A DNA stretch of 64,000 nucleotides, taken from contig RPFO01000256.1 in NCBI GenBank assembly GCA_009746045.1, positions 952,429 through 1,016,428 on the forward strand. The letters run 5' to 3'. The DNA comes from Mesostigma viride (taxonomy: Eukaryota > Streptophyta > Mesostigmatophyceae > Mesostigmatales > Mesostigmataceae). A model generated the notes under the pieces. That model was not told where the DNA came from. It made no database searches and saw nothing but the letters and a program-made list of their open reading frames with translations. Each line of letters starts with the position of its first letter. Position 1 is the first letter of the stretch. This document shows positions 1,068-64,000 of this stretch, one piece after another. The position numbers and the translations under genes are program-made.

Positions 1068-1131
1068 GGGTGGTCCCACGCGGAATGGGGTAGATTTTTG
1101 CAAGAAAAAAACGCTAATTTCAATCGTCCGA
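1068..1131 (+). repeat. Left terminal inverted repeat of giant transposon
   Basis: The sequence is the reverse complement of 28130-28202: 24 perfect terminal bases, then a shared stretch with a run of seven A and ending CAATCGTCCGA, offset by about 10 bp. It is preceded by the TGTA duplication. Confidence 0.93.
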
Positions 1132-1515
1132 AAACCGGACATTGCGCCGAAATTCTTGCCGAAAATTTGGCAGCCGAGCGAATTTTTCGCCCGACGGACT
1201 TTGCGCCGAAATTTTGTGTCTGCCGTGCTTCGAACTCAACCGACTCCTGCTGTTGCGTGCACTTTGTCCGATGCCTGCAGGCCACGCACGAATTTTGCGA
1301 CCGAAATATGACGACTAGACAAGTTTATCGACGACCTACATCGATCTATTGCCACTTTTGAAGTCCTTGGCTTGCTAGCAGCTTTTGATTATCAATGCCG
1401 GGAACAAAATTGCCGAAATTTTTTATTGAATCAGTACATATATGTGCACATGTCCGTAATTTTATCATTCGCAATTTTGACATTGTCGGAGTATTTGACA
1501 ACTTAGGCATTGCGC

Positions 1516-2154
1516 CTAGAAAAAGGTGCCCCATCCGTCGATGTCAAAATCGCCGAAGGAGTACACTCCCTGGTACTGGTCTCCCCTGTAGTTGGGAGGC
1601 TCGCCTGTATACATTTTGGTGTTCCACTTGGCCCCGCCGTTCTCCGCAGCAGCCAGGAACTCCTGCTGGGCCTCGGCCCTCAGGCGCATCATTGATACAT
1701 TGGGAGAGCCCGGAATTTCCGTGCTCTCCACCACCACTCTCGCCTGATTGTCAGGCACGCATTGGTAAGCAGGGTTCAAATCTGAATCGGGTGGCACCAG
1801 ATCGATCATGCCATTGCCGAACGCAATGACACCTGCACCCCACTGTGCAGAAGGTCCGAGCAACTCTACATCAATTCTGATGTTTGCAGCGTGCTCATTT
1901 TTGTCGACCATCACATAGGTATGCTGAGAACCGAAAATATTGCTCTGCTCCATTTGTGACAGTGTTAAATTTCGGCAAGGTTGGCTGCTTGCAATCGACA
2001 GGAAATTGGTGACCCCGACAGCCAGACGCGCAAGGGTTATAACTGCAGGTAGAACCCAAAATTTGTCGATAAGGAGTAATGGAAGGGCACGACCACCAGT
2101 CACTAGTATTCGCTTCACCGGACACCTTTTCAGCTTCCGGATAAAATTCAGCAA
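1516..2154 (-). CDS. Hypothetical protein next to left TIR of giant transposon
   Basis: Open frame of 212 codons, about 380 bp inside the left inverted repeat, in the same direction as the transposase gene. Residues ~1-25 are basic, and residues ~24-55 hold a hydrophobic stretch that could be a membrane segment, although an internal Met near residue 68 would give a shorter soluble protein. The rest is acidic to neutral, rich in Asn, Gly and Asp, and ends in an aromatic/Gly-rich tail. I recognise no family. It could be a real accessory gene, the last exon of a spliced gene, or a chance frame; position and length make a real gene moderately likely. Confidence 0.45.
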   Translation of the reverse strand: MLNFIRKLKRCPVKRILVTGGRALPLLLIDKFWVLPAVITLARLAVGVTNFLSIASSQPCRNLTLSQMEQSNIFGSQHTYVMVDKNEHAANIRIDVELLGPSAQWGAGVIAFGNGMIDLVPPDSDLNPAYQCVPDNQARVVVESTEIPGSPNVSMMRLRAEAQQEFLAAAENGGAKWNTKMYTGEPPNYRGDQYQGVYSFGDFDIDGWGTFF

Positions 2155-2751
2155 GAGCAGCGGCGATTAGATACTAAATATTGCGTTATTGGTTCGTACC
2201 GTACCCAGACAAAAATTGTACTAGTGACGCAATTGTACTAGGCGGAATGACAACTGCGCCCGGCAAATAAGTATTTATTGCTCCAACCCCACAAACTTGT
2301 TCCGGAGCTGTTCGAAGCGAAGAGCAATGGAAGGGATCGGACCCGAGCCAGATTTGAGTGCGGAACATGATGGCTGGCCTACCTCACTCCGAACATTAAT
2401 GTGGACCCGGGTTCGAATCCTGTCAGTGCTATTCGCTTCGAACAGTTCCGGAACGATTTTTTTTGTGGGGGTGGAGCAATAAATTCTCGACATGCAGAAA
2501 CAAATGTCGAAATCCTTATCATTATTTAAATATACAGCATAAAATTATGTTGCAGTAAAAAATAACTGTTAATTGAAGGCCGCAAAAAATTATCAACTAC
2601 CCTTAAACTTGACCACAGAAAGATCTCGAAAAATATATACAATATATGCGGCCACCTTTTTACACCCTACTGAAGCCCCACTCTAAAGATATAATACGAG
2701 CCGAAACTAGGGCGTCGTCTACCCGCAGCGAGACCCCAATTTCTTGTTAAT
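2155..2751. other. Non-coding spacer with MITE-like insert
   Basis: No convincing gene. It holds the inverted-repeat element at 2274-2483 and AT-rich sequence downstream of the transposase stop codon. Confidence 0.6.
2274..2483. mobile_element. MITE-like 210-bp element with long inverted ends
   Basis: The left end reads TTTATTGCTCCAACCCCACA and then covers a stretch through GTTCCGGA and CTGTTCGAAGCGAA; the right end is its reverse complement, ending GGAGCAATAAA, for about 45 bp of imperfect arm. The core carries GGTTCGAATCC (2410-2420), a match to the RNA polymerase III B-box, but no clear tRNA cloverleaf. It is probably a short non-autonomous element inside the giant transposon; a folded-back duplicate or SINE-derived piece is also possible. 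Confidence 0.6.
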
Positions 2752-5700
2752 TTAAGTCGGTGCCGGCCCCTCCGGGGCTTCATCCTTGATCACCAGCGTA
2801 GTAAGCCACTTGTCGAGCTCCTTGCTCATCCTGATGTCGGCACACATTCCGTCGCTGCGCACGCGTGCTTCTAGCCGGAGAGCCGGAGCGACGCAGAGAT
2901 AGCAATTCACAAGCTCGGGCTGGCGTGACGGTGGCCAATCCTCAACGTTGAGCGTGAAATGCAGGGGGTCATGCTTATCCCGCTTCCAAATCCGAACGGG
3001 AAGAATGCCGTTCCCGGCGAGGAACAGCTCCTTCTCCCGTCCGTTCCGGCCCTCGACCCACCTCTCGAAGTTCTCGTCTAACACGATCGGCCCGGCTTCG
3101 CTTACAACCTCAGCCAACCAGAACGGGTGGATGGGATCGTGATCCGTGTCCTTGTCCGATGGAACTGCCACATAGTCGTGGAGTCTCATCTGCCGGCCCA
3201 TCGCCTCCCGCTTGTCCTTCAGCTGCTCCCCCCGCGTCACCATGCGAACCGGAGGGTTGGGCTGGCTCGGTGGCAGCAAACGGACAGTTTTCATCGAGCT
3301 TCCTGCATCATTGAACTCGATGATAAACGACCACTCGCTTAGACATCCCTCAAACCGCCCAGCCAAACAGGGCGGACAGTAGCAGGAATAGCGCCTAATC
3401 ATCAAAAGGCCAGGGTCGGACTTGTCCAGTCGCCACCAATGCGCCTTCTTGATGCCAGGCACCTCCTCAACCTCCGCGCGTCGGCCGGACTCGACGTCCT
3501 GTCATCAAATAGTTAGGACAAAAAGAATACCGTTCAAATTAGCAAAATTGACCAAAAACCAATAAAACAGGGTATAGCTGCAGAGAGACCCCTTAAAAAA
3601 AAATTAACGACAAGACATCAAGTGATCAAAATTCGACACAGGGTATAGCTGCAGAGAGACCCCATTCGAATCATAATAACAACGTACGACAAGATATCAA
3701 GTGATCAAAATTCGACACAGGGTATAGCTGCAGAGAGACCCCATTCGAATCATAATAACAACGTACGACAAGATATCAAGTGATCGAAATTCGACACAGG
3801 GTATAGCTGCAGAGAGACCCCTTCATACCGAAAGAACAAGCGAAATTTCATACCTAAAAGAAAAGCAACCCATGGACAGTATATAGGGTCTCTCTGCAGA
3901 GATACCTTTATTGGGTTTGAATTTTTATAGAACAGCGGCAGTTGACGTCTTAAAACCTGAAATAACACAAAATTCCGTACCGGGGGTAAAAGGAAGAAGT
4001 GGCGAGTGACGTTCTCGGCCCGCGCGCGGGCCGACTCCCTGCTCGATGTCTTGCCGCCCTGCCAGTTCTGGTTCAAGTAGGCGACTAGCTGGTGGGTCTC
4101 AAGTATGTGCTGGTTTTCGGGAATCCTCTGCATTTCCCTCAAGACGCACTTGCACTTCGCTCCTTGACCATCCACCTCCCCCTTCCCATGCTGCTCCCCC
4201 ATGTAGTGGAACTCAAAGGCCTGCAGGTCGGGATCCCCCATGAGCAGACCGTTAATCTGGTTAATCACGTACCTGGACTTAAACTGCACCGCGCAGTTGT
4301 CCGAGCACATGTACAGGTTTCGCACCTCTACCCCTACTTCTACCCGCAGGGTTTCCAGAATCTTGCGAAGAGCGTATACGAGTGCGCGCTCGCCCCGCTT
4401 GATACTGGAATCCCCCAGGAAAAAGAAGACGCGCTTTTCCAGCTCGCCGTTGAGCCGATAACGCACGATCATGGGCATCAGGATGTGGCTGCGCTTGTGG
4501 AAGTACTGCGACTGCAGTTGGACGTAGCTGCTGTTCTCGTAGTTCTCGGCCCAGTCGCCGTGCACGAGCACGTCCCCCTCTCTCAGATTCTTCTCCCGAT
4601 CCTTGATTGTATCCGCCTGCGACCAGGCCGTAAAGCAGTGCACGGTGAACTTGTCCCACATCTTAAGAATCTCGTCCCGCAGCTCAGCTGGGGTGGACCT
4701 CATTTGGACTTGCTCGGGCCGCTTCACCTTCTTCGCCGCCCTGCCATCGGTCTCGCCCTGTTTCGCAAAGGTCCGCAGACAGTTTCGATTTGCAATAAAA
4801 TCGCATTTCGATAAGATAACTGCAACTCACAAAGGGTCTCGCTGCAGCTATAGGTCACAAAAAAAAAAGTCAACAACATATTAACGGAGAAATAAAATCG
4901 AAACCAACTCACATTCACCCGTCGGGTCACAGTCTGCTCCACCATCTCGAACTTGAACCAATTCAGAATCTCCGTGGAATTCTTGTCCCGATCACACTGC
5001 ACCCAGTTATTATGGATGCCGCATGATTCCTCAGGACAGAACCCCTCCACACACGCCATCTTCAGTATGCGGTGAACCCTCTCCGTCCTCGGCACCCCAT
5101 CTTCGTCCTCCACCAGCCTCTCAGAAATGTCGAGGTCTTCCAGGTCCCGTCCCCGCCATTCATCTTCCCCCTCCCCCTCTTCCATCCCCCCGCCCATTCC
5201 GCCCCCTTCACGCAGCCCGTTATCCCTGCCGTCAGTCTCGGCGGACACCGGGCAGTGAAAGTGCTTGATCCAGTCCGTCGAGTGAATGGCTTTCCACATT
5301 CCGCAAGTACCGTCCGGCTCTCTGTACTTGGAGCATCCCGCACACTCCGCGCCACACTTGCAGTTCTTGCCGTGGTTCGCATTGGAGTGCTTGGTCCACG
5401 CCCCCATGGCCGACTGCATGGTGACGTGCTTCTCACACGCGCACAGGTTCCTCTCCTTCCACTTGCCCTTGATGCAATCGGGCGCGTATTTGCAGAAGGT
5501 CGTGTAGCCCACGTGAATGCCCACGTCCTTATCATACTGGTTACTCCTTTTGTTCCAGTACGCATGCTTTTCGAGAAAGTGATTGTACATGTCCTCCTTG
5601 GAGGTCATGTAATAGCGCGCTCCCTCAACGGCGACGAGCACCCCGTGATTGCCACGACCCTCCCTGCTGTAAGTGCGCTTGACATCCTTCATCTGGGAGG

Positions 5701-6837
5701 AGGCGCGCGACTCATCATCGTGCATCCACGCGTCCACTATCGCGTCAATCACGAATTGCGGCAAAGGGCGCCCCTTGCGAGCCTGCGCGTGTCTGAGGTA
5801 GTCCAACTTCTGCTGCCTTCGTATCGCGCGAATTCCGCGAATCTTCTTGGCGTCCATCCCCGTCAGGTTCTCCAACTCCGCGGCCGAAAACTCCTTCTCC
5901 AAGTCGTCACCACAGTAAAGCGTGGACATCAGCACCATCCTGACGTCTCTGTCTGCGTCGCTTTTGGTCAGACCATCAAAAAAGCCGTTAATCCGAGCCA
6001 CCCAGAACCTGTTCAGTTCTGCCATCCGCTCCTGATTGTAAAGCTTTTTCGCCTCCTCATGATACTTCCCGTGACCTAGTTCAGCGGCCCTAGAGTTAAA
6101 GCCAGCAATCATCTGGTCGAAAGCCGGCCCCCGCCCCTCGGGTTTTGTCATCGCCTGAGCCGCTTCAAACGCCTGGTCAGCGAAATATTCCCCAATAACC
6201 CTCTTTGATTTCGAGTATTCTCCCGGCCGCTTGACTTCCTTGGCTTCAGGCTGCGCTGGATTCTGGTTCTCATCTCCGAAAACCCTTTTTGCGCCAGTTG
6301 ACTGCTTCGTCCCGGTGTTCAACTTAATTGCACTGAATCCTGGACGACCGGACGCAAGGGCGAAAACTCCCACCCGTTCGCGTGCTGCATGCCATGACGA
6401 CCGGCACAACGAAATCCATGCAAATCGAGTATCGTTGGGAAAAGCGACAATTACAGACAAAGTTCGAAAGTGTATCATTTTTTACCACGATTGGGGTCTA
6501 GCTGCAGCTAGACCCTTAGAGGGGCTTTTTCCGTTAGACGAAAAGATTACCTGATGTGGTGAACTTAGCATACCCCGACCAAGATTGGGGTCTCGCTGCA
6601 GCTAGACCCTTCATTGCGGCGTGCGATTGTTAAATCACAGACTTCTGATTCATTAATTTTATAGCAACCATAAAGAGGGTCTAGCTGCAGCGAGACCCTT
6701 GAATTTAAGCTATTGCTTGTGGTTATAAATGGTCTAGCTGCAGAGAGACCCCAATAAGGACGAAAAGATTTCAGGTTTTCCTCACCTTCGCGGCTCATTC
6801 TCTTATTAGTTCTCCCAGAACACTCAGATACCTGCAT
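2752..6837 (-). CDS. Spliced DDD/E transposase of the giant transposon (Sola-like?)
   Basis: Likely exons on the minus strand: a short first exon ~6837-6792 (ends at a GTGAGG donor), 6478-4913, 4762-3983 and 3499-2752. The 4913/4762 junction (GTGAGT...CAG) and the 3983/3499 junction (GTACGG...GACAG) keep the frame. The large exon has a basic N-terminal half and a Cys/His-rich module (residues ~340-400 of that exon, many CxC and CxxC pairs). The next exon holds the catalytic core: D in HGDWAENY, D in CSDNCAVQFK, and D (or E) in HGKGEVDGQG, spaced about 85 and 43 residues. The last exon contains a BAH-like stretch (DYVAVPSDKD...PFWLAEV). The layout matches DDD/E transposases with a D(F/W)AENY signature seen in invertebrate repeats; the superfamily is inferred. 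It would cut and join the 1068/28202 ends. No break was noticed, so it may be functional. Confidence 0.8.
3500..3982 (-). repeat. Transposase intron with tandem palindrome array
   Basis: This intron holds four tandem units of about 78 bp, each starting with a GGGTATAGCTGCAGAGAGAC palindrome variant (3570, 3641, 3720, 3799), followed by a conserved tail with CAAGATATCAAGTGATC. A fifth, oppositely varied palindrome lies at 3886-3906. The second and third units are nearly identical, so the array grew recently. Confidence 0.85.
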
Positions 6838-8295
6838 GGCGAGAATAACAAAAATAACACAGTAGCATTGATAAAATTGTTTATCAGAAAATATATATAC
6901 TAATTACAGTATATTTTGCAAAAGATTTTATAATATATTGTGAATAGCATGGTTAAATTCCACATACTTTAATAATATGGTATGTTAAAGTATATAGAAT
7001 CATTATTTAGTAAATCATTTACAAGAAAAAGTGGTATAGACTATTATTATTATATAGTTCGGCAATCTATGATAGTAAGACGTACCGGATGTCAGGTTTA
7101 TCAGCGGCCTCCAGGGCTATAGCGTCTCGCTGCAGCGTGAGTTTGGTGCTATGACTGATTTCAGTAGATGTGCAGAAAAAAATTTATTTCCATGACCACA
7201 CCAGGAATCGAACCCAGAACCTCATTGTACATTTCGCATGGTAACGATGTCAGCCAAACATCCGAATGTTCCCAGGTAAATGGGCTGGAGGTCGTCTCTT
7301 TTTATACCTGCGGCCACAAGCACGGGTGACGGCATATTGGATGTCGTCCAATCCGCTAGCTTGGTTCCAAAAGATGGGATCGAGCTTTTGCACCAGCGCC
7401 GCGCTTCCAGTTTTCAGTTCCGTGGGGAGGAACGAGGATGCCACGTTTCCAATTTTTTCAATACCGTTCAGCCCTGTGACGCCGCGTCCGTTTTGCGAAT
7501 TGCGACCGTCCCATCGCCCATCGAAAAAGAAGCGCAGCCGCAGAGAGACCCCATAGCTGATACGAGCTGCCATATCGTTTCGACGTTTGCATGCTACCTG
7601 CTGGATTATAAAATCCTACGTTGATACCTGCCTGGTGCCGGAAGTTTACAAGGAAATCGGTCTGCTTTCGCCGCACAACGAAAAAAAGGTGAGCTTTTGC
7701 CGCATCCTGGATGGTAGGCTGACTAAAATTGTTCTATCAAAAACGGCAACTAAACAGCGCATGCACGCCGACGACACAGTTAGCCAGCTGGGCGAAGACA
7801 TGTCCTTGCTGCCATCGCAAGAAACTCTATGTTGCAGCAAGAGTGATAAAAATGTCTGGCTTCCTTCTTTTCGTTGCTAGCTAAACCCTGCAGACATCTC
7901 GGTAGAGTCAGCTAAGCCGATCCTAATCCACATCTGGCATCCATCCCTTTAGTCTAGTTGCCATGGAGCGTTTCTTGGTCTCGCACATGTCGATCATGGT
8001 GGTGCTAGGCTTTCACTTGGGTCACCCTTTCCATGTTTGCTATGCCTTTGGTCTGGTTAGGTTATAGGTGTAGATGTGCACATACTGCATTTGCTGCGTT
8101 TCTAATCGGTGCTCCTGTTTGATGCTTTTTTTCCCCTTCATATCGTTTCGACGTTTGCATGCTACCTGCCGGATTATAACATCGGACGTTGCTACCTGCC
8201 TGCATAACGATAGTTTGCAAGAAATCTTCATTTTGCCGAAACACAAAAAAAGGTGATCTTTTGCCGCAACGTGGATGGTAGGCTGACTAAAATTG
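6838..8295. other. Intergenic region upstream of transposase, no gene supported
   Basis: AT-rich sequence around 6840-7080 could hold the transposase promoter. Two degenerate palindromes (7122, 7535), a tRNA-like segment (7195-7262) and one copy of a direct repeat follow. Frames here are short, overlap on both strands and show no domain. Confidence 0.6.
7195..7262 (-). other. tRNA-like / SINE-like fragment
   Basis: On the minus strand a TTGGCTGACAT segment resembling an A-box is followed about 35 nt later by GGTTCGATTCC, a B-box match, in the spacing of a tRNA-derived SINE head. No complete acceptor stem was found, so it is a fragment or SINE rather than a working tRNA gene. Confidence 0.45.
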
Positions 8296-8299
8296 TGCT
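7571..8299 (+). repeat. ~165-bp direct repeat pair
   Basis: The stretch from CATATCGTTTCGACGTTTGC near 7571 through GGTAGGCTGACTAAAATTGT near 7737 recurs, diverged, at about 8141-8295. The 30-bp minisatellite starts exactly at the end of the second copy, so it arose in or beside that copy. Confidence 0.8.
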
Positions 8300-9903
8300 G
8301 CTACGTATCAATACATGTGGGGGGGTGCTGCTACGTATCAATACATGTGGGGGGGTGCTGCTACGTATCAATACATGTGGGGGGGTGCTGCTACGTATCA
8401 ATACATGTGGGGGGGTGCTGCTACGTATCAATACATGTGGGGGGGTGCTGCTACGTATCAATACATGTGGGGGGGTGCTGCTACGTATCAATACATGTGG
8501 GGGGGTGCTGCTACGTATCAATACATGTGGGGGGGTGCTGCTACGTATCAATACATGTGGGGGGGTGCTGCTACGTATCAATACATGTGGGGGGGTGCTG
8601 CTACGTATCAATACATGTGGGGGGGTGCTGCTACGTATCAATACATGTGGGGGGTGCTGCTACGTATCAATACATGTGGGGGGGTGCTGCTACGTATCAA
8701 TACATGTGGGGGGGTGCTGCTACGTATCAATACATGTGGGGGGGTGCTGCTACGTATCAATACATGTGGGGGGGTGCTGCTACGTATCAATACATGTGGG
8801 GGGGTGCTGCTACGTATCAATACATGTGGGGGGGTGCTGCTACGTATCAATACATGTGGGGGGGTGCTGCTACGTATCAATACATGTGGGGGGGTGCTGC
8901 TACGTATCAATACATGTGGGGGGGTGCTGCTACGTATCAATACATGTGGGGGGGTGCTGCTACGTATCAATACATGTGGGGGGGTGCTGCTACGTATCAA
9001 TACATGTGGGGGGGTGCTGCTACGTATCAATACATGTGGGGGGGTGCTGCTACGTATCAATACATGTGGGGGGGTGCTGCTACGTATCAATACATGTGGG
9101 GGGGTGCTGCTACGTATCAATACATGTGGGGGGGTGCTGCTACGTATCAATACATGTGGGGGGGTGCTGCTACGTATCAATACATGTGGGGGGGTGCTGC
9201 TACGTATCAATACATGTGGGGGGGTGCTGCTACGTATCAATACATGTGGGGGGGTGCTGCTACGTATCAATACATGTGGGGGGGTGCTGCTACGTATCAA
9301 TACATGTGGGGGGGTGCTGCTACGTATCAATACATGTGGGGGGGTGCTGCTACGTATCAATACATGTGGGGGGGTGCTGCTACGTATCAATACATGTGGG
9401 GGGGTGCTGCTACGTATCAATACATGTGGGGGGGTGCTGCTACGTATCAATACATGTGGGGGGTGCTGCTACGTACGTATCAATACATGTGGGGGGGTGC
9501 TGCTACGTATCAATACATGTGGGGGGGTGCTGCTACGTATCAATACATGTGGGGGGGTGCTGCTACGTATCAATACATGTGGGGGGGTGCTGCTACGTAT
9601 CAATACATGTGGGGGGGTGCTGCTACGTATCAATACATGTGGGGGGGTGCTGCTACGTATCAATACATGTGGGGGGGTGCTGCTACGTATCAATACATGT
9701 GGGGGGTGCTGCTACGTATCAATACATGTGGGGGGGTGCTGCTACGTATCAATACATGTGGGGGGGTGCTGCTACGTATCAATACATGTGGGGGGGGATG
9801 CTACGTATCAATACATGTGGGGGGGTGATGCTACGTATCAATACATGTGGGGGGTGATGCTACGTACGTATCAATACATGTGGGGGGGTGATGCTACGTA
9901 TCA
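8296..9903 (+). repeat. 30-bp minisatellite, ~53 copies
   Basis: The unit is a TGCTGCTAC, GTATCAATAC, ATGTGGGGGGG 30-mer repeated almost without change; a few units are one G shorter or carry a doubled ACGT (near 9475 and 9868). It translates in all forward frames without stops, but those frames have no coding meaning. The strand is G-run rich, so quadruplex formation is conceivable. Confidence 0.97.
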
Positions 9904-11045
9904 TTTATTTATTCATGCCATCACCCCCCCACATTTAATTATTAATGCCAGCACCCCCAACATTCATTTATTCATGCCATCACACCCCCACATTCTTTTA
10001 TTCATGGCAGCACCCCCCACATTTATTTATTCATGCCATCACACCCCCACATTTAATGATTAATGCCAGCACCCCCCAACATTCATTTATTCATGCCATC
10101 ACACCCCCACATTCTTTTATTCATGGCAGCACCCCCCACATTTATTTATTCATGCCATCACCCCCCCACATTCTTTTATTCATGGCAGCACCCCCCCACA
10201 TTTATTTATTCATGCCATCACCCCCCCACATTTAATTATTAATGCCAGCACCCCCCAACATTCATTTATTCATGCCATCACACCCCCACATTCTTTTATT
10301 CATGGCAGCACCCCCCCACATTCTTTTATTCATGGCAGCACCCCCCCACATTTATTTATTCATGCCATCACCCCCCCACATTTAATTATTAATGCCAGCA
10401 CCCCCCAACATTCATTTATTCATGCCATCACACCCCCACATTCTTTTATTCATGGCAGCACCCCCCCACATTCTTTTATTCATGGCAGCACCCCCCACAT
10501 TTATTTATTCATGCCATCACCCCCCCACATTCTTTTATTCATGGCAGCACCCCCCACATTTATTTATTCATGCCATCACCCCCCACATTCTTTTATTCAT
10601 GGCAGCACCCCCCCACATTTATTTATTCATGCCATCACCCCCCACATTTAATTATTAATGCCAGCACCCCCCAACATTCATTTATTCATGCCATCACACC
10701 CCCACATTCTTTTATTCATGGCAGCACCCCCCCACATTCTTTTATTCATGGCAGCACCCCCCACATTTATTTATTCATGCCATCACCCCCCCACATTTAA
10801 TTATTAATGCCAGCACCCCCCAACATTCATTTATTCATGCCATCACACCCCCACATTCTTTTATTCATGGCAGCACCCCCCCACATTCTTTTATTCATGG
10901 CAGCACCCCCCCACATTTATTTATTCATGCCATCACCCCCCACATTTAATTATTAATGCCAGCACCCCCCCACATGCATTTATACATAGCATCCCCCCCC
11001 ACATGTATTTATACGTAGCTTCCCCCCCCACATGTATTTATACGT
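9904..11045 (-). repeat. Second minisatellite, inverted relative to the first
   Basis: Units of ~29-30 bp with CATTTATTTATTCATGCCATCACCCCCC. Read on the minus strand they have the same frame as the first array (GGGGGGTGCTGC, then a variable core, then ATGTG). Transitional units at 10974-11045 (ACATGTATTTATACGTAGC) are almost exact reverse complements of the first array. Four sub-variants alternate, showing higher-order amplification. Confidence 0.93.
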
Positions 11046-11594
11046 GGTCGTAAGGGTCTCGCTGCGGGTAGACCCTCGGAATTTTGTTTTTGTATTGACG
11101 TTAGGGTCTCGCTGCAGCGAGACCCCAAGGAATGTCAATTTTTCATGTTTTCATGATGGGGGGTCTTTCTTTTCTCACCCTTAAAATGATTTGTTTTTGT
11201 ATCGGTGTTAGGGTCTCGCTGCAGCGAGACCCCTACGAATGTCGACTTTTAATGTTTGCAAGATGGGAGAGGGCTTTCTTCGCTCACCCTAAAAATGATT
11301 TGTTTTTGTTTGACGTTAGGGTCTCGCTGCAGCGAGACCCCTACGAATGTCGACTTTTTTATGTTTGCATGATGGGAGGTTGCTTGTTTTCGCTCACCCT
11401 AAAAATGATTTGTTTTTGCTTGAAGTGAGGGTCTCGCTGCAGCGAGACGCCAAAGTTTTGCATTAAACTAAATGTCCCTTTTAGAATCCACGAAAGGGTC
11501 TAGCTGCAGCGAGACCCTCCCCATCGTTTTTCTGCCGGTAATTCAGATTCTGAATGACATTTGTGAAACTTGCTTTTTTGATATTGTTCTGCAG
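11046..11594 (+). promoter_or_regulatory. Palindrome array upstream of the unknown large gene
   Basis: Six palindromes (11053, 11103, 11211, 11319, 11429, 11496). The middle four sit in ~108-bp tandem units containing TTTGTTTTTG and a CTCACCCTAAAAATGATT tail. A pyrimidine-rich TTCTGCAG acceptor directly precedes the ATG at 11595, so part of this may be a 5' UTR intron. A regulatory role is inferred from position only. Confidence 0.55.
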
Positions 11595-12787: not shown

Positions 12788-12979
12788 GTATGTTTATTGA
12801 TGTGAGACGTACATTTCTCAGATGGCTTTTGAACGGCGTGTGTGTATCGTAGAAAGGGTGGGATTTTATGTCATACATTGATCCTAAGGGTATAGCTGCG
12901 GAGAGACGTTGACTTAGGAGTTAAGGTTGTTGACGACGACGACGATGTGTGGCCTTTTTTTTACTCTTGTTGTCTGCAG
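12788..12979 (+). other. Intron with palindrome
   Basis: GTATGT donor, TGTCTGCAG acceptor; contains the 12888 palindrome variant and a GACGACGAC short repeat. Confidence 0.7.
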
Positions 12980-13063
12980 CCCTCCACGGTGGCCATTCTG
13001 AAACAGTACCTGGCTCAGACTGAGTCTGAGGCTGGGGTGAGTCGTAAAGCCGAAAAGGGCTTG

Positions 13064-13680: not shown

Positions 13681-13704
13681 CGTATTACACGCTCTGTCAA
13701 AAAG

Positions 13705-14409: not shown

Positions 14410-14577
14410 TCGGCCTAATTTTCTTCTGCAGTACTTGTCGACATTTTTTTGTCGAATTTCGGCGGCAATTCGCGGGGCGGCAGCGACACCGGCGCAGGCG
14501 GCAGAGGCGACACAAAAATTTTGTACATATTTTCTGCTGCTTTGTTAAGGTGTTCTTTGAATAGCTGGTAGTGCAGG

Positions 14578-18600: not shown

Positions 18601-19318
18601 TCAAGAGACCCTCATTAGCAAGCTTCCTCCAACCATCACACAGGCACTGTGTCCCATGGTGAGGGGCATGGTTGCTTGGGTGGCAGGCATTTCCAGGCCA
18701 GACCTTATGGTCATAGCCAGGTTGCCTGATGACATGCTGGTGGAGCTAGGGTCTGCCAAGGTGGCTGATCAGGTCAGGGCTTCATCTGGCATTCTGTTGT
18801 CTGCAGTGGATTTATCACAACCCATTTGCATGGAGCTGTATGTGGATAGCTCAATGGACAGCAGGCAGGTCTCCAAGGTCAGGGGCAGGGCTGCAGGGCT
18901 CTTTGTGCTCAGACAGGAAGGCCTGGGGAGTTTGGTGAGCTGGTTTAGTCGCCTGCACAAACGGGTGGCTGTCAGCAGTGATGTGGCAGAATGCAGGGCT
19001 ATTTGTGAAGGCATTCACACAAGCCTTTATCTGAAGGAGTTGCTTCATCAGATGACTTCTAACACTCCTTGGCCACTTCAGGTTACCACTCTTCTAAAAA
19101 CAGACTCCATGGGGATGGTGCAGTTTGTGCACAGGCAGATGGCCAGAAGTAGGGACTTGGATTATCTCCTTCTTAAGGAGTTGTCCTCCTTGGCCAATAT
19201 TGAGCATATCCCTGGGGTTGACAATCCTGCTGATGCTTTGACCAAGCTAGTGCAGAAGGCAGCAGTGCAATACAAGGTTCTTCAGTCTCTGATGGACCCA
19301 TCTCAGCAAGCTGTCTAA
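15693..19318 (+). CDS. pol: Copia C Pol: integrase, protease-like, RT, RNase H
   Basis: The frame is open from just after the Gag TGA; the first ATG is 15834. Numbering from it: integrase with D164, D216, E247 and an SH3-like C-terminal barrel (~340-390); then a retropepsin-like stretch with VDTNSQVSII (D500) and ALLGQNFL (~562); then Copia-type RT with D765 (VIDFKRAFLEG) and HGDD at ~859-862 in place of YVDD. A 1-nt shift in a run of seven G (18560-18566) moves the rest into the frame of 18575-19318, which holds RNase H (YVDSSMDSRQ, AECRA, KTDS, NPADALTK). The usual Copia order is protease then integrase, so this order is unusual. With the G-run shift the copy is probably defective. Confidence 0.9.
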
Positions 19319-20266
19319 GCTGGTGCATGGTTATAGGGCATTGGAGAGCAGATTGTGTGGTAGTGTCAGCATTGTGACTGGCATAATACCTGTATTTTAG
19401 TCTGTACTAAGGCTCATGGACCATGGTACACTCACTCTGATTTTAATCAGGATACAGCCAGGTTTTGGCTGGGGTTCATGCTGTTGACTACACAAGGTTG
19501 ACAGGTCCATTACAGACCATGTATTCTATTTTAAAAGAAATGTATATTTGTACATACTCTCACAATGGTCTGGGAACCTTTATTCTGGGGTTTATAGGGC
19601 GGGGTTCGATTCCCTGGTATTATGTTTCTACAAGCTGGCCTGTTCAGGTGTTTGCCTGTTCAGACTTCCCTAGTTCCCCAGGGCAGGATTTAATTGTTGC
19701 CTATGTGTTTCATTTTGTCATTTGTTTGCTGTGGCAGTTTACCATCTGGCAAGTAGACGGGCGCCGTAAGACGGGCGCCAATAGACCCCTGTTGAGAGAA
19801 TGACAGGCAAACTATTGTAATACGCCTTACTTTGTCAAGTGGTATTTTAATTGTCATGGATTTATTGTACTTATATTGAATATGTACTGGGTTTTATGGG
19901 ATTAGTATCTGGGATTAATGTAACTCACCGCCAGAAGGTCATTGTACTGGAGGCTCTACCGAGGTGATGGGATTAATTCCTGGAGAAGACCTCATAGAAT
20001 TAACCTGTATGTATTTAATTTTGTGTGCTTCTAATATCTGGTGGTACTCTGTAATGCCACTTCCATAGGTTTTCTCCATTTCTCATGAAATGGTTTTCCC
20101 TGTGGCAGATCTGTTTCTTTTCCAGTTCCTTAAAAGAAAGGGCTGGGGGAATGGCAATGGCCATTAAAGACATCTGTTCAAGCTTCAAGCTGGAGTGAAG
20201 GACATTTCAAGCTACTTCAAGGGTCCCTGGCAGGGGATGTGATCCCTAAAGAAAAGAAGGGATTGG
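19319..20266 (+). other. Copia C 3' non-coding region
   Basis: No gene between RNase H and the 3' LTR. A GGTTCGATTCC B-box-like match lies near 19603, with a purine tract immediately before the LTR. Confidence 0.65.
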
Positions 20267-20883
20267 AGTTAACGTAAAGGATTTACGTTAGATGGATAGA
20301 GATTGTTACGCTCTTTCCAACGGCACCTTGAACGCCTCATTTGGTTAAGGAACGTAAAAGTTATGACGTTTCCTAGGCTGTGCCGACAGTACCCGGCGCG
20401 CCACTGTGGGCGCGTACGGACACAGGATGTACAAGTGTCACTTTGATAGTCCGCAGGACGTTGACAGGACTTGTACAGGACTTGATGGTCAATTGATAGG
20501 TAGGCGCACTGTAGCGCGCCAGGACCTATGAGACAATTGATGCTGACTAGTGTACGGATAGGTCCACAGGACTAGCCGTATGGACAATTGATAGATCTGC
20601 GCGCCAAAGGCGTGCCAGAGTCTGTGTAATCAATTGATTGACAGTTCAGCTGTGACAGTGCAGCTGAATACTTGGACGCGTCCCTAGTAAGCTATATGAG
20701 TGACTTGGTCACACCGGGACGCTAGTTCTTGCGTGCACGTTCTCTTGGCACTGCGACCCTGTCGTCTGTGCTGCGTGCAGTCTTGGAAGTGACGTGACTT
20801 ACGTCTGTGTTTCCTGATTATTAATAAAGGCAACTTCCTGCAAGAACCATGGCGGAATTCGTGGCATTCTTACCCTCACAACT
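20267..20883 (+). repeat. 3' LTR of Copia C
   Basis: Partner of 13064-13680, followed by GCTTG and by the resumed cargo-gene exon. Confidence 0.95.
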
Positions 20884-21961
20884 GCTTGAGAGGCTTGATC
20901 CGCTTTCTTTCGGCCGAGATAGCGTTTGCAGAGAAGTCCGGTGTCGTCGTGGACCGTCCGGAGTCGGCACACATAATTTGGAAGAACGACCGCCTGGGCC
21001 ATCTTGCATTGTTCGAAGCCACACAGCGAGCCATTCATGGGAAGAGGGTCGTTGGTGACGACATTTATGAGGTTTTGAAGATCGCGCAGTCGTGCATCCT
21101 TAATCTGAAGGAGGATGTCGGACGTTACTTTCCCCGTCGTGCTTTAATATGGTCGACGCTCTTTGATGAGGTTGAAAAGTTCGAGGTCCACATTGGCTTC
21201 ACATGCATCGAGGCTTCCTATATGGAAACCTTGAAAACCACTGCGTTGCATCAGCTCTTTAAACTCATGACTGGAGATATGAGAGCGGATTCGAGGGCTT
21301 CACTGTCGGAAGATGAAGTGTTTGATATTGTCAGGCAAGGATTTGTTGACACGTCCAACAGTGACTTTATCGTAATTGTGCCGGGAAGAATGAATGACGT
21401 AGGAGGATTGGAGGAGCGCGCACATGAAGTGATCGCGCATTTGGACATGGCAAGAGACCACTTACTGCAATCTTTTGTTAAGTGGCGGACTGACTTTCTT
21501 GTTAGCCCGGACGCCAGCCTTTCGCGGGAAGCGGTCGCTTTCTTTTTGGATTGGGCTGGACAGGTGATCCAAAGTTTCCGGCACCGGGAGGACTTCCATG
21601 TTATTCAGACATATAAGCCATACCGGGAAGTCGTCCAGGAATGGTTGGATCAAATCTCGTTGGTTGATTGTCTCCAGAGTATCCGAACCAAGACAGACAC
21701 GGAGTGGTCTGATTTAGAGGCGGGAGGCCATTGGCAGTCCCTCGAGTTGTTCTTCGAGGCGGAATTGAGGCGGCAACTGGAAAAGGAGAGAGCCCATCAA
21801 GTGCCGATATGGCCTTTGGGGAAGATTTTGAGGAGGTGGAAGTTCTACGTTTCGGTACGTTAACTTGCCGATATCGTTTATCGATTTGGGTTGTTTCCAT
21901 TCCCTGAATAGGGCTCTATATGCTGACCAACCTTCATGGTTTGTCCTGTCATATCATGCAG

Positions 21962-22476
21962 GGGGGCTCCATGCCAGGGGACGTATCGGAGGATGTACCG
22001 AATTTGTCAGACTTGGTTGATAAGGTGGGTGCTTGTCCGTCGAGTTTCCACGAGCATCTTACATGGGGTCTAGCTGCAGGTAGACCCTCACCCTTTTATT
22101 GAGACTGACATGTTCGGCTAATTTCAACGGTGCCCCCAACCAATCTGTTGTCTTTTTTCAGGGGGCGGCTGCGGCGATGGCTGTTGACAGTGCTGGTATT
22201 TGGTCTGGACTCGAGATGGAAATGGTAAGCATTAAACGATATCCGGATGTCTGCATTTCGCCTGAAGTTTTAGTGAGCGCATTATGCGAAATATACAAAT
22301 GTCGACTAATTTTGATTTCCAATGAGCTGTCGTATTCGGTGTTGACAGGCGGGGGTTTGGCCTCAGCAGGCGCTGCCGGAGAGGAAGAAAACGCTGGAGG
22401 AGATGAGGATGGGGGGGATGAAAACGCTGGAGGAGATGAGGATGGGGGAGACGCTGAGGGAGAAGTGGCTGTGCAG
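21962..22476 (+). CDS. Unknown large gene, small exons 3-5
   Basis: Candidate exons are 21962-22024, 22162-22224 and 22349-22476, bounded by CAG acceptors and GTGGGT, GTAAGC and GTACGT donors. The middle exon is Ala/Met-rich. The third has an internal duplication giving acidic Gly/Asp/Glu repeats (ENAGGDEDGGD twice) in the frame that joins the next exon. The phase between the second and third does not close perfectly, so one boundary is wrong or mutated. The intron 22025-22161 carries a palindrome (22065); the intron 22225-22348 does not. Confidence 0.5.
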
Positions 22477-22602
22477 GTACGTTCATCCGCCGCGAGTTCG
22501 TGTGATTTTTTTCGTGCTGAGGGGTATCTCCGCAGAGAGACGATGGTGCAACAATCGAACTGAGGTGAAGTCCCTTCTTGTTCGTTTTTTTTTGTCATGC
22601 AG

Positions 22603-23124
22603 GCGGGGGCTGTCGCTGGGGGTACTGCGGGGGGGAAGGCGGCGAAGCCTCCATTGACTGAGCATGAAAGGGAAAAGCTGGATTCCCGCAAGAAGGTTGC
22701 GAAGGATCATATTATTGCTGTTGGCCTGATCATGCTTAAGTCTCCGCCCGATGGCGTCGATTCGGAGGGACCTGCGGGGTCCGAGTTTCGCAAGTACCTG
22801 ACACGACTTGAGGCGGAAGTCGATGCCGATTTCGATACGGAGGTGTTGGGTGTCGCTACCCTTAATAGTGAATTGGCATATGAATTTGTAAATCTGGTGA
22901 GGTCGAAAGCCACCAAGAATTTCAAGTGGCAGCCTAAGGAGTACTCAGAGGCAAAGGTTGAGAAGATCGAGAAATTCATGAAGGTTGATTTTCGTCGTCG
23001 GGCCGCTGAGGGAAAAAGGGCGCTGAATGCGGTGGCAAAGGCCAACAGTAAGAAGAACGCGGAGGCGAAGAAGGCGGAGAAGGAGAAGGCTAAGGAGGCC
23101 AAGAAGCAGCAGAAAACTGGACAG
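22603..23124 (+). CDS. Unknown large gene, exon 6
   Basis: Exon from a TGCAG acceptor to a CAG|GTACG donor. It encodes ~174 residues: an Ala/Gly-rich start, a mixed charged helical middle with a short compact-looking region (EFRKYLTRLEAEVDADF), and a Lys/Ala/Glu-rich coiled tail (KKAEKEKAKEAKKQQK) like a nuclear or nucleic-acid-binding tail. No domain recognised. Both flanking introns hold palindromes (22521, 23147). Confidence 0.65.
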
Positions 23125-23313
23125 GTACGATTGTTGTGAAAATTTAGACCTCTCGCTGCGGGTAGACGCTGACTGGCTGCGGGACTTGGTGTTGAGTGTC
23201 AGTAAGGTATTATTCCAACAGAACTTTGTTCGTCCCTGAACAGGATGTCGTGGTCGGCCTAAATATTACTGACTTGAGCAAATCCTGCGGTCCTTTTCGA
23301 TTTTTTACTTCAG

Positions 23314-24481
23314 GATGACGGGGGGGACGAAGACGCCACGGTGGAGAAGAAGTTACCTGGTCATGACGCCGTGTTCGCGCTGGTGAAGGATATGCTCAAG
23401 TACTGCTCGAGTAGGCGGATGGCGGACGTCGATGACCTGCCAAACTGGCCCGAGTTCTCCCCCTTTCTTGAGCTGCTCCGGTCACTCAACAAGCTTTTTA
23501 AGGAGGGGGTGCTCACGAGCAGTGGGAACCCGGACACCGACCCTATCATTGAAAGCTGGAAGCCTTCGAAAAAGGTCGACTCGAACAAGGAGGTCAGGGA
23601 CCAGAACATCCGGAAGGCCAATTCTCTCAGGGAAACGCGTTGGATTCGGCCGGCCGATTTTCAGCAGACCGGATGTTTCAGTATGCGGATCCAGACGGTC
23701 AACGCGCTTATTTTGCCAGAGGCTTTGAGGCAGCGGCGTTTAAACCTTGAAACCATTAAGGAGAACGGCCGCATTCTCCTCAATGCGCGGGACAACGCCT
23801 TGCACTTCAAGGTTGTTGTCCCGGTCTGGCAGTTCCCTTTCCAGGCGCTTGCCGAATCTCAACCTGACCTGTTCGACAAGCAAATCTTGTGCATGCCGGA
23901 TTTCGTCAAGTGGCTGAAGCATTCACCACGGCGCCAAGATTGACGCGGAGGATGTGGGGTCCAGGTACTTCCGGCCCCTTTCGGATACTGAAGTCGACGT
24001 GTGGCTTAACACGGAGTCCACCACCTCTTTCCTCGCGAGAGGACTTGAGTGGCGTACCTACGCCAGGGTGGACGAGGTGGAAGCAGTTTTGCCTCAGGAG
24101 ATCGAGGGCAGTCGGGATGTTTTCAACCTGCTGTGCAATACTGCGATGAAGTCCTACGATCCGAAATTTTTTGAGGAACGGGTACCGGTACCGTATCTGG
24201 TTCTCCGGTACGCGGTGGTGGATGGGAACCACTACTTTAAGGGGTTAAAGTCGTTTCTCAGGGGGCCGGATGGCGGGTGGGGAGAGGTTCGGGCAATGAT
24301 GTGCGAGGGTGGGGCGGAGTCCAATTTCGCAAAGACTCCTAAGGAGGCGGAGCACGCCTTCCAGGACCTGTTGCGGAAATTCCGTGGTGGTTACATGGGT
24401 ACGAACGTCATTCTTCTCAAGGGTGGCGACCTGCTCCCGTCGTGGAGTGAGCTGCGAAATCTACCTAAGGCAAAAGAAGAT
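23314..24481 (+). CDS. Unknown large gene, exon 7 (frameshift near 23930)
   Basis: Acceptor CTTCAG at 23311-23313, donor GAT|GTAAGC. About 205 residues read to a stop at 23943, and the following ~175 continue one frame over; sequence on both sides of ~23915-23935 looks coding, so a 1-nt indel is likely. Trp- and aromatic-rich globular sequence (RWIRPADFQQTG, VPVWQFPFQAL, RYFRPLSDTEVDVW). I do not recognise the fold. It is probably a folded domain of the cargo protein; remote homology to a polymerase, helicase or nuclease cannot be judged by eye. Confidence 0.62.
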
Positions 24482-24736
24482 GTAAGCTATCTATTTTGGC
24501 AGGGTCTAGCTGCGGGTAGACCCTCGGAATTTTCGTGGTTGTTTTTTGTGTGCGCTTCAAGTTTTTTGCGAGGGTCTCGCTGCAGCTAGACCCTCTCCTT
24601 TTTTTTGTTGGAATTTTCGTTGCGTATTGTCGGCCGTTTCTTTTTCGAATTTTGTTAGGGTCTATCCGCAGCTATACCCCTCGCCTTTTATGACTGAGTT
24701 TTGTCGTTGCTCGCTCGATGTTAATTGATGTCGCAG
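24482..24736 (+). other. Intron with three palindromes
   Basis: GTAAGC...TCGCAG intron carrying palindromes at 24501, 24571 and 24657, about 70-86 bp apart with T-rich spacers. This is the densest case among the short introns. Confidence 0.8.
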
Positions 24737-25744
24737 GCGGTGCTGACCGGCAAGCTGGAGAAGCTGTTCGACATCGCCAAGGGGGCGAATTCGGAGGACT
24801 TAGCCGTGGCGGATCGTACGCTGGGCCAGGCGTTGCTTGACGTGTGGAACTACAACAAGCTATATCTATACGGCAAAGTCACGCGTGGGAAGGGCCACTA
24901 TATTGCGGATGGCCACTACACCAATCTGCTCACGTACATCCTCCCGGCTATGCGGCAAGCGGGGGGAAGGGAAGGGAATGTGGAGCCGGCAGCGGTGGAT
25001 GTACACGAGGAGGAAGCAGAAGGAAAGAAAAAGCCGGCCCACAGCATTGCTTCAGTGCATTCCGCTTACAGTCGCACGCTGGCCAACACGTTTCTCCGTC
25101 TGACACAGGAGCAGACTGATGATCCTGCCTCAACGAAACCCGCGCCTGAGGAGGTGATGATGCAAAGGTGCAAATTCGCCAATGCAGAGGGGGAGAAGAA
25201 AGGCCAGAAGGTCTCTTGGACTTCTTTCAGGAACTTGGCCAGCCTTCCTATGATGGACGCCGTGATCGATTGCATCATGAGCTGCCAGGTTGGACCGGAA
25301 AAGCTCACCAAGTTGGTGGAGATCGCCAAGGATGTGCTGGAGTGCCTGCGGCTGACCATTTGCGCCAGATTCAAGGAGGATGTGACGCTGGAAGCGCGAT
25401 GCAAGGACGCAAATGGCAAGGAGTTTGTGGCGTCTCATATTTTCGAACTCGTCTTCAATCTCCATCCTCTCGCTCGGCCGGTCGGCAGGAAGGAGATTGT
25501 GGCCAGATACCGGGAATTTTGGGATGTGGCCGTCATCATAACGAGGAACATCGCCTACCTTCTTAAAGCCAAAAAACACGCCGCACATCTGAGGATTCCG
25601 AGAAAGGATATCAGTAATGGCAAGATCGACTTTCAGGAGATTCTGCTAAAAGAGAGCGAGGACAAGACGGTGGGTTTGGCACTTTTTGCTCCGGAAGCGT
25701 TCAGGAAGTACGCTCCAAAACTTGGATTACTCGAAGGGGGGTGA
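24737..25744 (+). CDS. Unknown large gene, exon 8
   Basis: Follows a GCAG acceptor; ~335 residues to a TGA at 25742-25744. It begins with a helical LTGKLEKLFDIAKG segment, has a Tyr-rich patch (NYNKLYLYGKVTRGKGHYIADGHYTN), a charged linker and a long helical region ending LALFAPEAFRKYAPKLG. The stop falls in a run of six G (25736-25741), and all three frames are open or nearly so just after it, so the true protein may continue into the Lys-rich segment that follows. No domain recognised. Confidence 0.6.
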   Translation, partial: AVLTGKLEKLFDIAKGANSEDLAVADRTLGQALLDVWNYNKLYLYGKVTRGKGHYIADGHYTNLLTYILPAMRQAGGREGNVEPAAVDVHEEEAEGKKKPAHSIASVHSAYSRTLANTFLRLTQEQTDDPASTKPAPEEVMMQRCKFANAEGEKKGQKVSWTSFRNLASLPMMDAVIDCIMSCQVGPEKLTKLVEIAKDVLECLRLTICARFKEDVTLEARCKDANGKEFVASHIFELVFNLHPLARPVGRKEIVARYREFWDVAVIITRNIAYLLKAKKHAAHLRIPRKDISNGKIDFQEILLKESEDKTVGLALFAPEAFRKYAPKLGLLEGG

Positions 25745-26544
25745 AGGAGGCGGCGATGAAGGGGCCGGTGAAGGGGCTGGAGAAGGGATCGAAGGGGAAG
25801 GGGAAGGGGAAGGAGACGGAGGCGAAGAAGGAGGAGGAGGAGTGGGACGTGAAGTATGAGTGGCAGAGTGTGGACTGGGGCCGTCGCCGGGTCTGGTTTT
25901 GCTGTCAGTTACTAGACGGTGATGATGATGACAAGTCGCTCGTCAAGCAGGTGGCAGGCGAGGTTGCCTCAGCTTCAGCCCGCCCCTTTCCCTTGGGCTA
26001 TAGGTCCCTTCCGTGCCTGAGCCTGCTGAACTTGGCGAACATTTGGGGTGATAAGTGGAGTAACTTTCAGTCCAGGTGGTGGGCGTTCGGTCCTTGCCCG
26101 AAAGCTTCGGACATTCCCCAACCGGGCGGGATGTACGATCATGTGCTGAAGGCTTGCGCCCACGACTTTTTCTCCAGGTTCGAACCGATGGTGATCGTGT
26201 TTGGTACCGAGACGGAGATTAAGGGGTTTCAAGAGATAGTGGAAAGGATCGGGAAAGGGAGTGAATTGTGGGAGCGGCTTGAACAGGGGGAAGGTGATGG
26301 GGGGCCTAGGCTCGGAAGGGCGAAGAAGCGAAAAGCTTCCCACGAAGCTGGGGGATTGTCCGCCGTGGTGGAGAGGGATGACCAACAGTTGTTGGAGGGA
26401 GGGGATGGAGGGGATGGAGGTCCGGCAGGAGGGTCTAACCGCGGAGAGACCCCCGTCGAGGTCAGAACGCAGCAGGCCGAACAGATACGGGGCCTGAAGG
26501 TGATTCGGATCCGCCTGCGGCGAAGAAGCCCGCTTCTCAAGTGA
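25741..26544 (+). CDS. Unknown large gene, Lys-rich linker and Trp-rich domain
   Basis: Starts with a basic tract (KGSKGKGKGKETEAKKEEEE), then a Trp/aromatic-rich globular stretch of ~130 residues (WQSVDWGRRRVWFCCQLL, NIWGDKWSNFQSRWWAFG) and a basic NLS-like RLGRAKKRKA. A palindrome variant at 26430-26453 lies inside the apparent frame, which hints at an unrecognised intron around 26410-26480, because palindromes otherwise mark introns. The stop at 26542-26544 may be downstream of a real splice. Confidence 0.55.
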   Translation: MKEAAMKGPVKGLEKGSKGKGKGKETEAKKEEEEWDVKYEWQSVDWGRRRVWFCCQLLDGDDDDKSLVKQVAGEVASASARPFPLGYRSLPCLSLLNLANIWGDKWSNFQSRWWAFGPCPKASDIPQPGGMYDHVLKACAHDFFSRFEPMVIVFGTETEIKGFQEIVERIGKGSELWERLEQGEGDGGPRLGRAKKRKASHEAGGLSAVVERDDQQLLEGGDGGDGGPAGGSNRGETPVEVRTQQAEQIRGLKVIRIRLRRRSPLLK

Positions 26545-27250
26545 CTCGACGGGCAGTCGTGTCACTTGTTGAGGATGATGGAGGTGGGCCTTCCAAGCCT
26601 GCCGCGTCGCAGCCCGTTTTTCAGGTTCCGAAGAAGCAGCTTCGGGTTCCCGCCGACTCTGCCCACCCCGGCGCCTCTGCCCAGTTCTCAGGTACCGAAG
26701 AAGCAGCTTCGGGTTCCCCCGCCGACTCTGGCCATTTCTCAGGTACCGAAGAAGCAGCTTCGTAAGCCAGTTGTGGCAGTGGCTGATTCGGACGACGATG
26801 CTGAGGAGGAGGAGGAGGAGGAGGACGACGATGCTGAGGAGGAGGAGGGGGAGGAGGAGGAGGAGGAGGAGGAGCAGCAGCCGTTGCTACCAAGAAATCC
26901 GCCAAGGGTGGGAAGGCTGCGGAGCACGTTGCTTCCAAGAAATCGGCCAAGGTGGGGAAGCCTCCCAAGCCTGCCCTGCCTCAGAAACGGCGTCGAAAAG
27001 CAGTTGTGCTTTCAGATTCGGACGATGAGGAGGAGAAGGAGGAGGAGGATGGCGGCGGAGAGGAGGAGGACGGGGGAAAGGAGCGCGTTGCTTCCAAGAA
27101 GTTACCCAAGACCGCGAAGACTGCCAAGGTTGCCGAGCCCGCCAAACCCGCCCCGGCGCCTGCCCCCCACCCCCAGACGGGGTCTACCTGCGAGCAGAGG
27201 TCGAAGGAAAAGGCCAAAAAGGGTAAGAAAAAATCTGCGAGTGAATTCTG
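26545..27250 (+). CDS. Unknown large gene, acidic/basic low-complexity region
   Basis: Contains three tandem copies of a ~70-bp unit with GTACCGAAGAAGCAGCTTCG (near 26626, 26692 and 26743), then long Glu/Asp runs and alternating Lys-rich segments (KKSAKVGKPPKPALPQKRRRK, split over frames) with SDSDDEEE casein-kinase-like sites. Frames switch at least twice. The exon ends at a CTG|GTATGT donor. This looks like a disordered nuclear, chromatin-type tail. Confidence 0.5.
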
Positions 27251-27345
27251 GTATGTAGAGTGTTTTGATTTTTTACGGTTGGCAGTCCGATTTCTACTAA
27301 CTCGATTTTAGTCATGCGTTGATGGCATGATCGGTTTGCTCGCAG

Positions 27346-27908
27346 GTAATGAGGATGTGGAGCAGTTACTTCGCTTGGCTAATGTGGCGGTGGGCTTCGG
27401 ACCAGCGGCTGTACATGCTGACACTTCCGGACGGGAGGAGCCTAAGGGGGCGGAAGACAGTCAGGCGGGCGATGAGGATGATGACAAGCCCACGTTGGAA
27501 ATGAGACTTATGGACGGGGAAATGGGGTTCGGAGCACCAGAGGCCTTTTGGTGTGATGGGTGGACTGCAGCCATTATGCAAGCAGGGAACAAGGATACGG
27601 CTACGCCAATGTATGCCAAGCTAGAAGACGTCATGCTTTATGGGCAGGTGTCTGGATACGACACCAAGTGGAGGGACGTCGCATTTAAGTTTTTCGCTGA
27701 GGGGGAGAAGGGAGGGAAGTTGAAGAACAAGTTGTGGTGGATGCCGCTGGACTACGCGATGAAGGTGGTAAAGCTGACGGATGGCAAGAGCTGGAAGGAT
27801 GTGGAAGTCTGGGCGCCTGCAAAGGAGATCGATAAGAAGAGGAGGAACTCGAAAACGGAACAGCAGATCGCGGAAGCGAAATTACGGAAGAGGCCCTCGA
27901 AAGTGTGA
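27346..27908 (+). CDS. Unknown large gene, last exon
   Basis: Follows a CTCGCAG acceptor and stops with TGA at 27906-27908, about 220 bp before the right inverted repeat. It encodes ~187 residues: an acidic linker, then a compact Trp-rich domain (MGFGAPEAFWCDGWTAAIM, KNKLWWMPLDYAMKVVKL) and a basic tail (KKRRNSKTEQQ...KRPSK). No family recognised. The position at the element edge shows that the gene belongs to the transposon. Confidence 0.62.
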
Positions 27909-28129
27909 GGGAAAGTTAGCACTTGGACATGCGCTGGCAATGCTCGTCCTATGGTTAATACAAAGGTTAGGATGATGTCGAGTCTCTCCACGTAAAATTT
28001 ACATGAATTACTAACTTTCAAGCCTCTCGATGTGGAATGTACGCTCAAATTGACATGAATTAAGCATTATGACACCAAATTAGCTCGAAAATACGCGATC
28101 GGACGCCAAATTCGCGCGAAAAAAAGATA

Positions 28130-28202
28130 TCGGACGATTGAAACTAGCGTTTTTTTCTTGCAAAATGCGCCAAAAATGACCCCATTCCGCGTGGGACCAC
28201 CC
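28130..28202 (-). repeat. Right terminal inverted repeat of giant transposon
   Basis: This is the partner of 1068-1131, followed by TGTA at 28203-28206 and then by the resumed Copia-A integrase sequence. Confidence 0.93.
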
Positions 28203-28206
28203 TGTA

Positions 28207-31858: not shown

Positions 31859-31956
31859 CACTATACTATAAACTTACGGCCCGTACACGTATACGGGCCC
31901 CGTATACGGCCCGTAAACGTATACGGGCTCCGTATACGGTACGTAAACTTTACTTC
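31859..31956 (+). repeat. Left TIR and start of subterminal array of CACTA element
   Basis: Repeated GTATACGGGC / TACGGCCCGTA motifs follow the TIR; the array resumes at 37457 beyond the DIRS insertion. Confidence 0.85.
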
Positions 31957-32090: not shown

Positions 32091-32115
32091 CCAAACACGC
32101 AGGGAGGGTGGGCGG

Positions 32116-32683: not shown

Positions 32684-32755
32684 TTATATCCCTCCCTGGC
32701 GATCCATGCCAGGGGCAAAGAACCTAGCATAATGACAGAGAAATGAACAACCAAA

Positions 32756-62033: not shown

Positions 62034-64000
<1,967 letters not shown>

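Follow-up and report, generated by a model that had tools for sequence, protein, structure and literature searches.

The 64,000-nucleotide stretch of Mesostigma viride DNA analysed here (the window) contains one copy of a transposable element that is most probably (about 0.85) a member of an autonomous, recently amplified DNA transposon family of ~20 kb. The anatomy of the family is established: a spliced transposase gene lies between fixed 24-bp inverted ends, the target-site duplications (TSDs) are 4 bp long and vary in sequence, and copies that are nearly identical occur at unrelated sites. From this anatomy alone we infer cut-and-paste movement, in which the minus-strand protein, whose core is probably an RNase H-like domain of the DDD/E type flanked by Cys/His-rich segments, would bind the ends, excise the element and insert it via 4-bp staggered cuts. 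No excision was observed.

Ends, true size and genomic copies

The window copy measures 27,135 bp end to end (1068-28202) and is organized as follows.

1064-1067, unstranded: left TSD, TGTA, with the junction read against the empty site
1068-1091, + strand: left terminal inverted repeat (TIR), 24 bp, perfect, GGGTGGTCCCACGCGGAATGGGGT, from pattern scan and alignment
1516-1953, - strand: a third, small ORF of 145 aa, without a family match and with a positive in-frame codon score
2715-26452, unstranded: 22-bp palindrome resembling GGGTCTCGCTGCAGCGAGACCC, in 25 copies, with clusters at 3570-3907, 6494-7143, 11054-11517 and 24502-24679
2752-6798, - strand: transposase gene, four exons (6798-6786, 6384-4913, 4757-3981, 3498-2752), 1002 aa, from the exon model and Mesostigma relatives
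8295-11041, unstranded: a pair of satellites, each built of 30-bp units and oriented oppositely, lying between the divergent genes
11595-13063, + strand: large gene, 5' part, up to the nested element that interrupts the gene, with exon 1 at 11595-12787 (start possibly 11472) and exon 2 from 12980
13064-20883, + strand: nested copia-type LTR retrotransposon, recognized by its LTRs, its TSD and its absence from other copies
20884-27908, + strand: large gene, 3' part, with exons to 21854, 21962-22024, 22162-22224, 22349-22476 (frame ambiguous), 22603-23124, 23314-24481, from 24737, and the last from ~27345
28179-28202, - strand: right TIR, 24 bp, perfect, GGGTGGTCCCACGCGGAATGGGGT inverted, from pattern scan and alignment
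28203-28206, unstranded: right TSD, TGTA, with the junction read against the empty site

At up to three mismatches, the two element ends are the only matches to GGGTGGTCCCACGCGGAATGGGGT in the 64-kb window (0 expected, 100 shuffles), and past the 24-bp TIR the inverted repeat goes on after a 9-base offset, with 62 of 74 columns identical. The empty site lies within a paralogous retroelement of the same window, copy B, where TGTA occurs singly at 43431-43434; the left flank (1-1068) matches copy B 42368-43435 at 99.3% and the right flank (28203-31858) matches 43431-47065 at 98.9%. The 24-bp TIRs, TGTA duplication and empty copy B site drawn in an earlier note are therefore correct to the base. 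Its 27-kb transposon holds as a unit bounded by TIRs and TSDs, but not in size, since 7.8 kb belongs to the nested copia-type element and other copies are shorter. The transposon's own DNA here thus amounts to ~19.3 kb, in agreement with the other copies (19.6-20.3 kb, and 23.1 kb for c1579 with an insertion of its own).

The nested element is delimited by LTRs of 617 bp each (13064-13680 and 20267-20883; 99.7% identical over a 627-bp alignment) and by a GCTTG TSD at 13059-13063 and 20884-20888. Its ORFs gave a zinc-knuckle match and a match to copia-type reverse transcriptase, neither of which reaches the Pfam cut-off, and a weak rve match in the window element is also part of it. In all five other copies read at this position (c2178, c1818, c1646b, c1579 and c1557) the insertion site is uninterrupted and the large-gene reading frame runs continuously across it, which places the nested element inside one of the large gene's coding exons.

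Beyond the transposon, the window holds a tyrosine-recombinase element at 31956-37456, with a minus-strand ORF of 1292 aa (32756-36634; Phage_integrase, E 9e-7) in which no reverse transcriptase match was found, and with split direct repeats (~31956-32088/32549-32690 and 32113-32549/37018-37456), a layout that we take to be like that of PAT/Ngaro-type DIRS elements. A single 50-bp satellite occurs at two places (39128-39562 and 48045-49465), and a 2-kb (TGCC)n microsatellite occupies 62035-64000, up to the window's end.

The window's own assembly (439.9 Mb, 2243 contigs) was searched with the element's left 333 bp, yielding 429 first-look candidates and at least 40 scored left ends, all at 100% identity; this lower bound includes the window's own copy, and 30 of the 40 share the top score while 10 are slightly lower. 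Flanks were read at 28 further left ends, of which 27 start exactly at the 24-bp TIR and the 28th (L038) carries a mismatch within it. These flanks are unlike one another save for two pairs, L003/L048 with identical 60-bp flanks and L040/L046 agreeing over the last 30 bp shown, and the four bases preceding the element lean weakly to [TG]GC[TA] (28 left flanks, effectively 27, as L038 is untrimmed). The survey and the flank reading together place many copies at unrelated sites, as expected of a mobile element.

Eight copies were fetched as 10- or 30-kb stretches, and both ends were found in four of them:

c2178: 19,867 bp, TSD ATCT
c1818: 19,590 bp, TSD AAGC
c1646b: 20,344 bp, TSD TGCT
c1579: 23,125 bp, with its own insertion, TSD ATAG

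For c2133, c1557, c1868 and c1635, the right end was absent from the stretch fetched (10 or 30 kb). Perfect TSDs of constant 4-bp length and varied sequence (TGTA, ATCT, AAGC, TGCT, ATAG) accompany the TIRs in 5/5 two-ended copies, the pattern of a DDE-type TIR transposon. The second copy with identical ends, on which the earlier note had staked its element, thus exists many times over, as at least 40 scored left ends and four further two-ended copies with TSDs.

Relative to the window, the transposase region (2752-6798) carries 0 substitutions in c2178, 3 in c1818, 0 in c1646b and 29 in c1579, and the small third ORF carries 0 in the first three and 1 in c1579. Large-gene exon 1 differs by 21 substitutions in each of these four copies; across exons 1 and 2 (11595-13063) the substitutions are window-specific, whereas three of the four copies match the window's transposase exactly or almost exactly. 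Because the copies differ in blocks, their sequences suggest recombination between copies. Insertions of unequal length with a nearly common start, TAAAAATATAATTACTTACA..., were observed in AT-rich spots of the transposon in c1868 (L027), c1646b (L018) and c1579 (L021), and resemble 5'-truncated non-LTR retrotransposons. A second near-identical left part, in reverse orientation, lies inside the 30 kb fetched for c2133 (L014). Repeats are reported to make up 66% of the Mesostigma viride genome in the NIES-296 assembly (PMC6947507).

The large divergent gene and the internal palindromes

The divergently arranged multi-exon gene proposed in the earlier note is supported, as a spliced plus-strand gene, by its exon/intron structure and codon signature. 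Seven GT-AG introns were checked, with probably one further near 27249-27344, and the predicted exons total roughly 2400 aa when summed from their coordinates. With the codon usage of the transposase as model, the proposed frame was compared with both other forward frames and scored best in every segment tested except 22349-22476, narrowly so in 22162-22224. No homologue was found among 7995 candidates scored under a length rule that left out shorter annotated fragments, and the exons scanned gave no Pfam match at cut-off and no PHROG match. A ParB-like domain in exon 8, suggested by a DGNHYF motif, was rejected, having no Pfam support and a low-confidence model (pLDDT 36.5).

In the window copy this gene is interrupted by the nested element and also bears frame changes in its 3' part. 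The frame changes differ between copies; that of exon 8 takes a form common to the window, c2178, c1818 and c1557 and absent from c1646b, c1579 and L049, a related stretch with segment identities of 90.5-99.7%. Such changes represent either drift in many copies or assembly indel errors. Compared with the window, L049 shows 22 synonymous and 97 nonsynonymous large-gene changes over six segments and c2178 shows 6 and 33 over seven. Close copies thus give no indication of purifying selection when compared, and dN/dS is near 1 where computable.

These substitution counts, together with frame changes unlike from copy to copy and a copia-type element seated in a coding exon, lend considerable weight, somewhat short of even odds, to the large gene being a dead or decaying passenger, with only the transposase and the ends mattering and the palindromes representing regulatory or repeat debris. 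Against this stand the transposase-like codon bias in all segments tested except 22349-22476, the occurrence of the gene in 4/4 other complete copies, the retention of 24-25 palindromes per copy, and the possibility that indels in the assembly account for some of the frame changes.

The palindromes form a set specific to the element. Counted at up to six mismatches to GGGTCTCGCTGCAGCGAGACCC, they number 25 in the window element, against 1, 0, 0, 0 and 0 in five first-order Markov sequences of the element's composition, and at up to three mismatches 16 occur against 0 expected. None lies in the nested retrotransposon or in the remainder of the 64-kb window. The other complete copies contain 25 (c2178), 24 (c1818), 25 (c1646b) and 24 (c1579), and none was found in 37,074 bp of flanks of these four. 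Only one of the 25 falls within predicted coding sequence (two with the earlier start codon), although such sequence accounts for 65% of the element once the satellites are set aside; the clusters occupy the transposase introns and 5' region, the region upstream of the large gene and one large-gene intron. The commonest half-sites are GGGTCTCGCTG, GGGTCTAGCTG, GGGTATAGCTG and GGGTCTCTCTG. The two halves vary independently (218 of 275 positions paired; shuffle mean 218.5), so the palindromes are read as sites on DNA; a reading as RNA hairpins was rejected, compensating changes being absent. The satellites at 8295-11041 show 53 G-runs on the plus strand in the first and 38 C-runs in the second, so that GC skew flips at ~9902.

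Within the transposon reading, the large protein could serve as an accessory DNA-binding protein acting via the 25 palindromes, either as a regulator of the divergent gene pair or by keeping the long element in one piece; that it binds the palindromes is a guess. This role is tentative and rather doubtful, and it lies outside the probability given above for the transposon family. As the gene is interrupted in the window copy, its function there would have to come from other copies, and the lack of purifying selection, together with frame changes in several copies, argues against a need for the gene in every copy.

The transposase and its relatives

A search with the transposase core matched three annotated proteins, all from Mesostigma viride: P0001 (100% identity, 4 member sequences), P0002 (67%) and P0003 (44%, 9 member sequences). 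Asp563 (codon 4556-4554) and Asp648 (codon 4301-4299), assigned as putative catalytic residues, are conserved across all three, as is the motif GEQHGKGEVDG. Following the core, CYC-x2/3-C and H-x3-H are conserved in 3/3 sequences, P0003 having C-x3-C. A profile built from the three sequences found two proteins, both known beforehand; the searches run found no relatives outside Mesostigma and no prokaryotic relatives.

In the predicted core, strands and helices succeed one another as in an RNase H fold, and an Asp follows each of strands 1 and 4. A fold search with this model returned mostly PIWI and RNase H domains as best matches, none reaching E 0.001; a DDE transposase was not among the 50 matches listed, which carries no weight as evidence. 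The core is thus probably RNase H-like and of the DDD/E type, with two of the three acids assigned. Of the DDD/E transposase claimed in the earlier note, the spliced gene stands and the core looks RNase H-like, whereas the third acid of the triad is not assigned and the model is poor (mean pLDDT 37.4).

In the window copy, in c2178 and in c1646b the transposase has an open frame, with 0 substitutions in coding exons; in c1579, exon 2 is only partly matched, the match stopping short. The partial exon of c1579 and the existence of related Mesostigma transposases (P0002, P0003) would fit visible copies that are non-autonomous and moved in trans by a different transposase of a related element, but the open, unchanged frames and the presence of the gene inside the ends in the copies read make this improbable. 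An origin of the inverted ends by chance or through misassembly, as a repeat-rich region with a paralogous retroelement in the same window might suggest, is refuted by the other copies, given 0 chance matches expected, the identical end at 27/28 further loci and TSDs in 5/5 two-ended copies.

Classification and significance

Academ elements combine an Academ-type transposase with an accessory nuclease or helicase; no nuclease or helicase Pfam match was found in the ORFs of the Mesostigma element that were scanned. Sola2, compared by description, likewise has a TSD of 4 bp and short TIRs; its transposase is also large, with 888 aa in one Dictyostelium family, and some families encode extra proteins, but its TSDs are described as AT-rich in two amoebozoan groups (PMC3627910), whereas those of the Mesostigma element include AAGC and TGCT. 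Kolobok also has a 4-bp TSD, and its 5'-RR..YY-3' termini would accommodate the GG..CC termini seen here; its described TSD, however, is TTAA (PMC9587614), which is required there and matches 0/5 Mesostigma TSDs. The CMCT group (CACTA, Chapaev, Transib and others) is described with TSDs of 2-5 bp, a range that includes the present length, with mostly CA..TG termini, in contrast to GGG..CCC here, and with C(2)C and H(3-4)H motifs between the second D and the last E (PMC12730594); the Mesostigma Cys and H-x3-H motifs follow the core, and with the last acid not placed the motif order is not established. Zisupton, of the KDZ group, differs in its 8-bp TSD (PMC12730594). Judged on the described features tested, none of Sola2, Kolobok, Zisupton and CMCT fits.

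Size alone is not new, since enlarged En/Spm families of 16-20 kb with 4-5 ORFs are reported from the red alga Chondrus crispus (PMC6431247); by description, these resemble the present element in size and algal host and differ in terminal sequence. Polinton/Maverick elements, which encode a protein-primed DNA polymerase B and a retroviral-type integrase, and Teratorn (PMC6431247) share its size class and large coding load, but the Mesostigma element differs in its 4-bp TSD, and the scanned ORFs of its own gave no Pfam match to polymerase B, retroviral-type integrase or viral genes. A viral origin was rejected, as no relatives were found in viral contigs, where the TIR pattern was also sought, or in phages, with the transposase and one large-gene exon as protein queries.

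No published description of this element was recognized in the literature searched. Because the transposase matched nothing outside Mesostigma in the searches run, its family may constitute an undescribed superfamily. The fullest form of this proposal, an undescribed DDE superfamily seen so far only in Mesostigma that moves ~20 kb as one unit with its transposase and a ~2400-aa protein reading the 25 palindromes as a built-in organizer or regulator, is unlikely.

DNA transposition reportedly becomes significantly less effective once the cargo exceeds 6 kb (PMC6431247), and the spread of a 20-kb element as near-identical copies therefore raises the question of how it is achieved. A second very large protein, together with element-specific palindromes, provides a testable proposal, and the transposase could represent a further superfamily of DDE enzymes. 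Moreover, the identity of copies points to recent activity in an alga that can be cultured, the early-diverging Mesostigma, near the base of the streptophytes.
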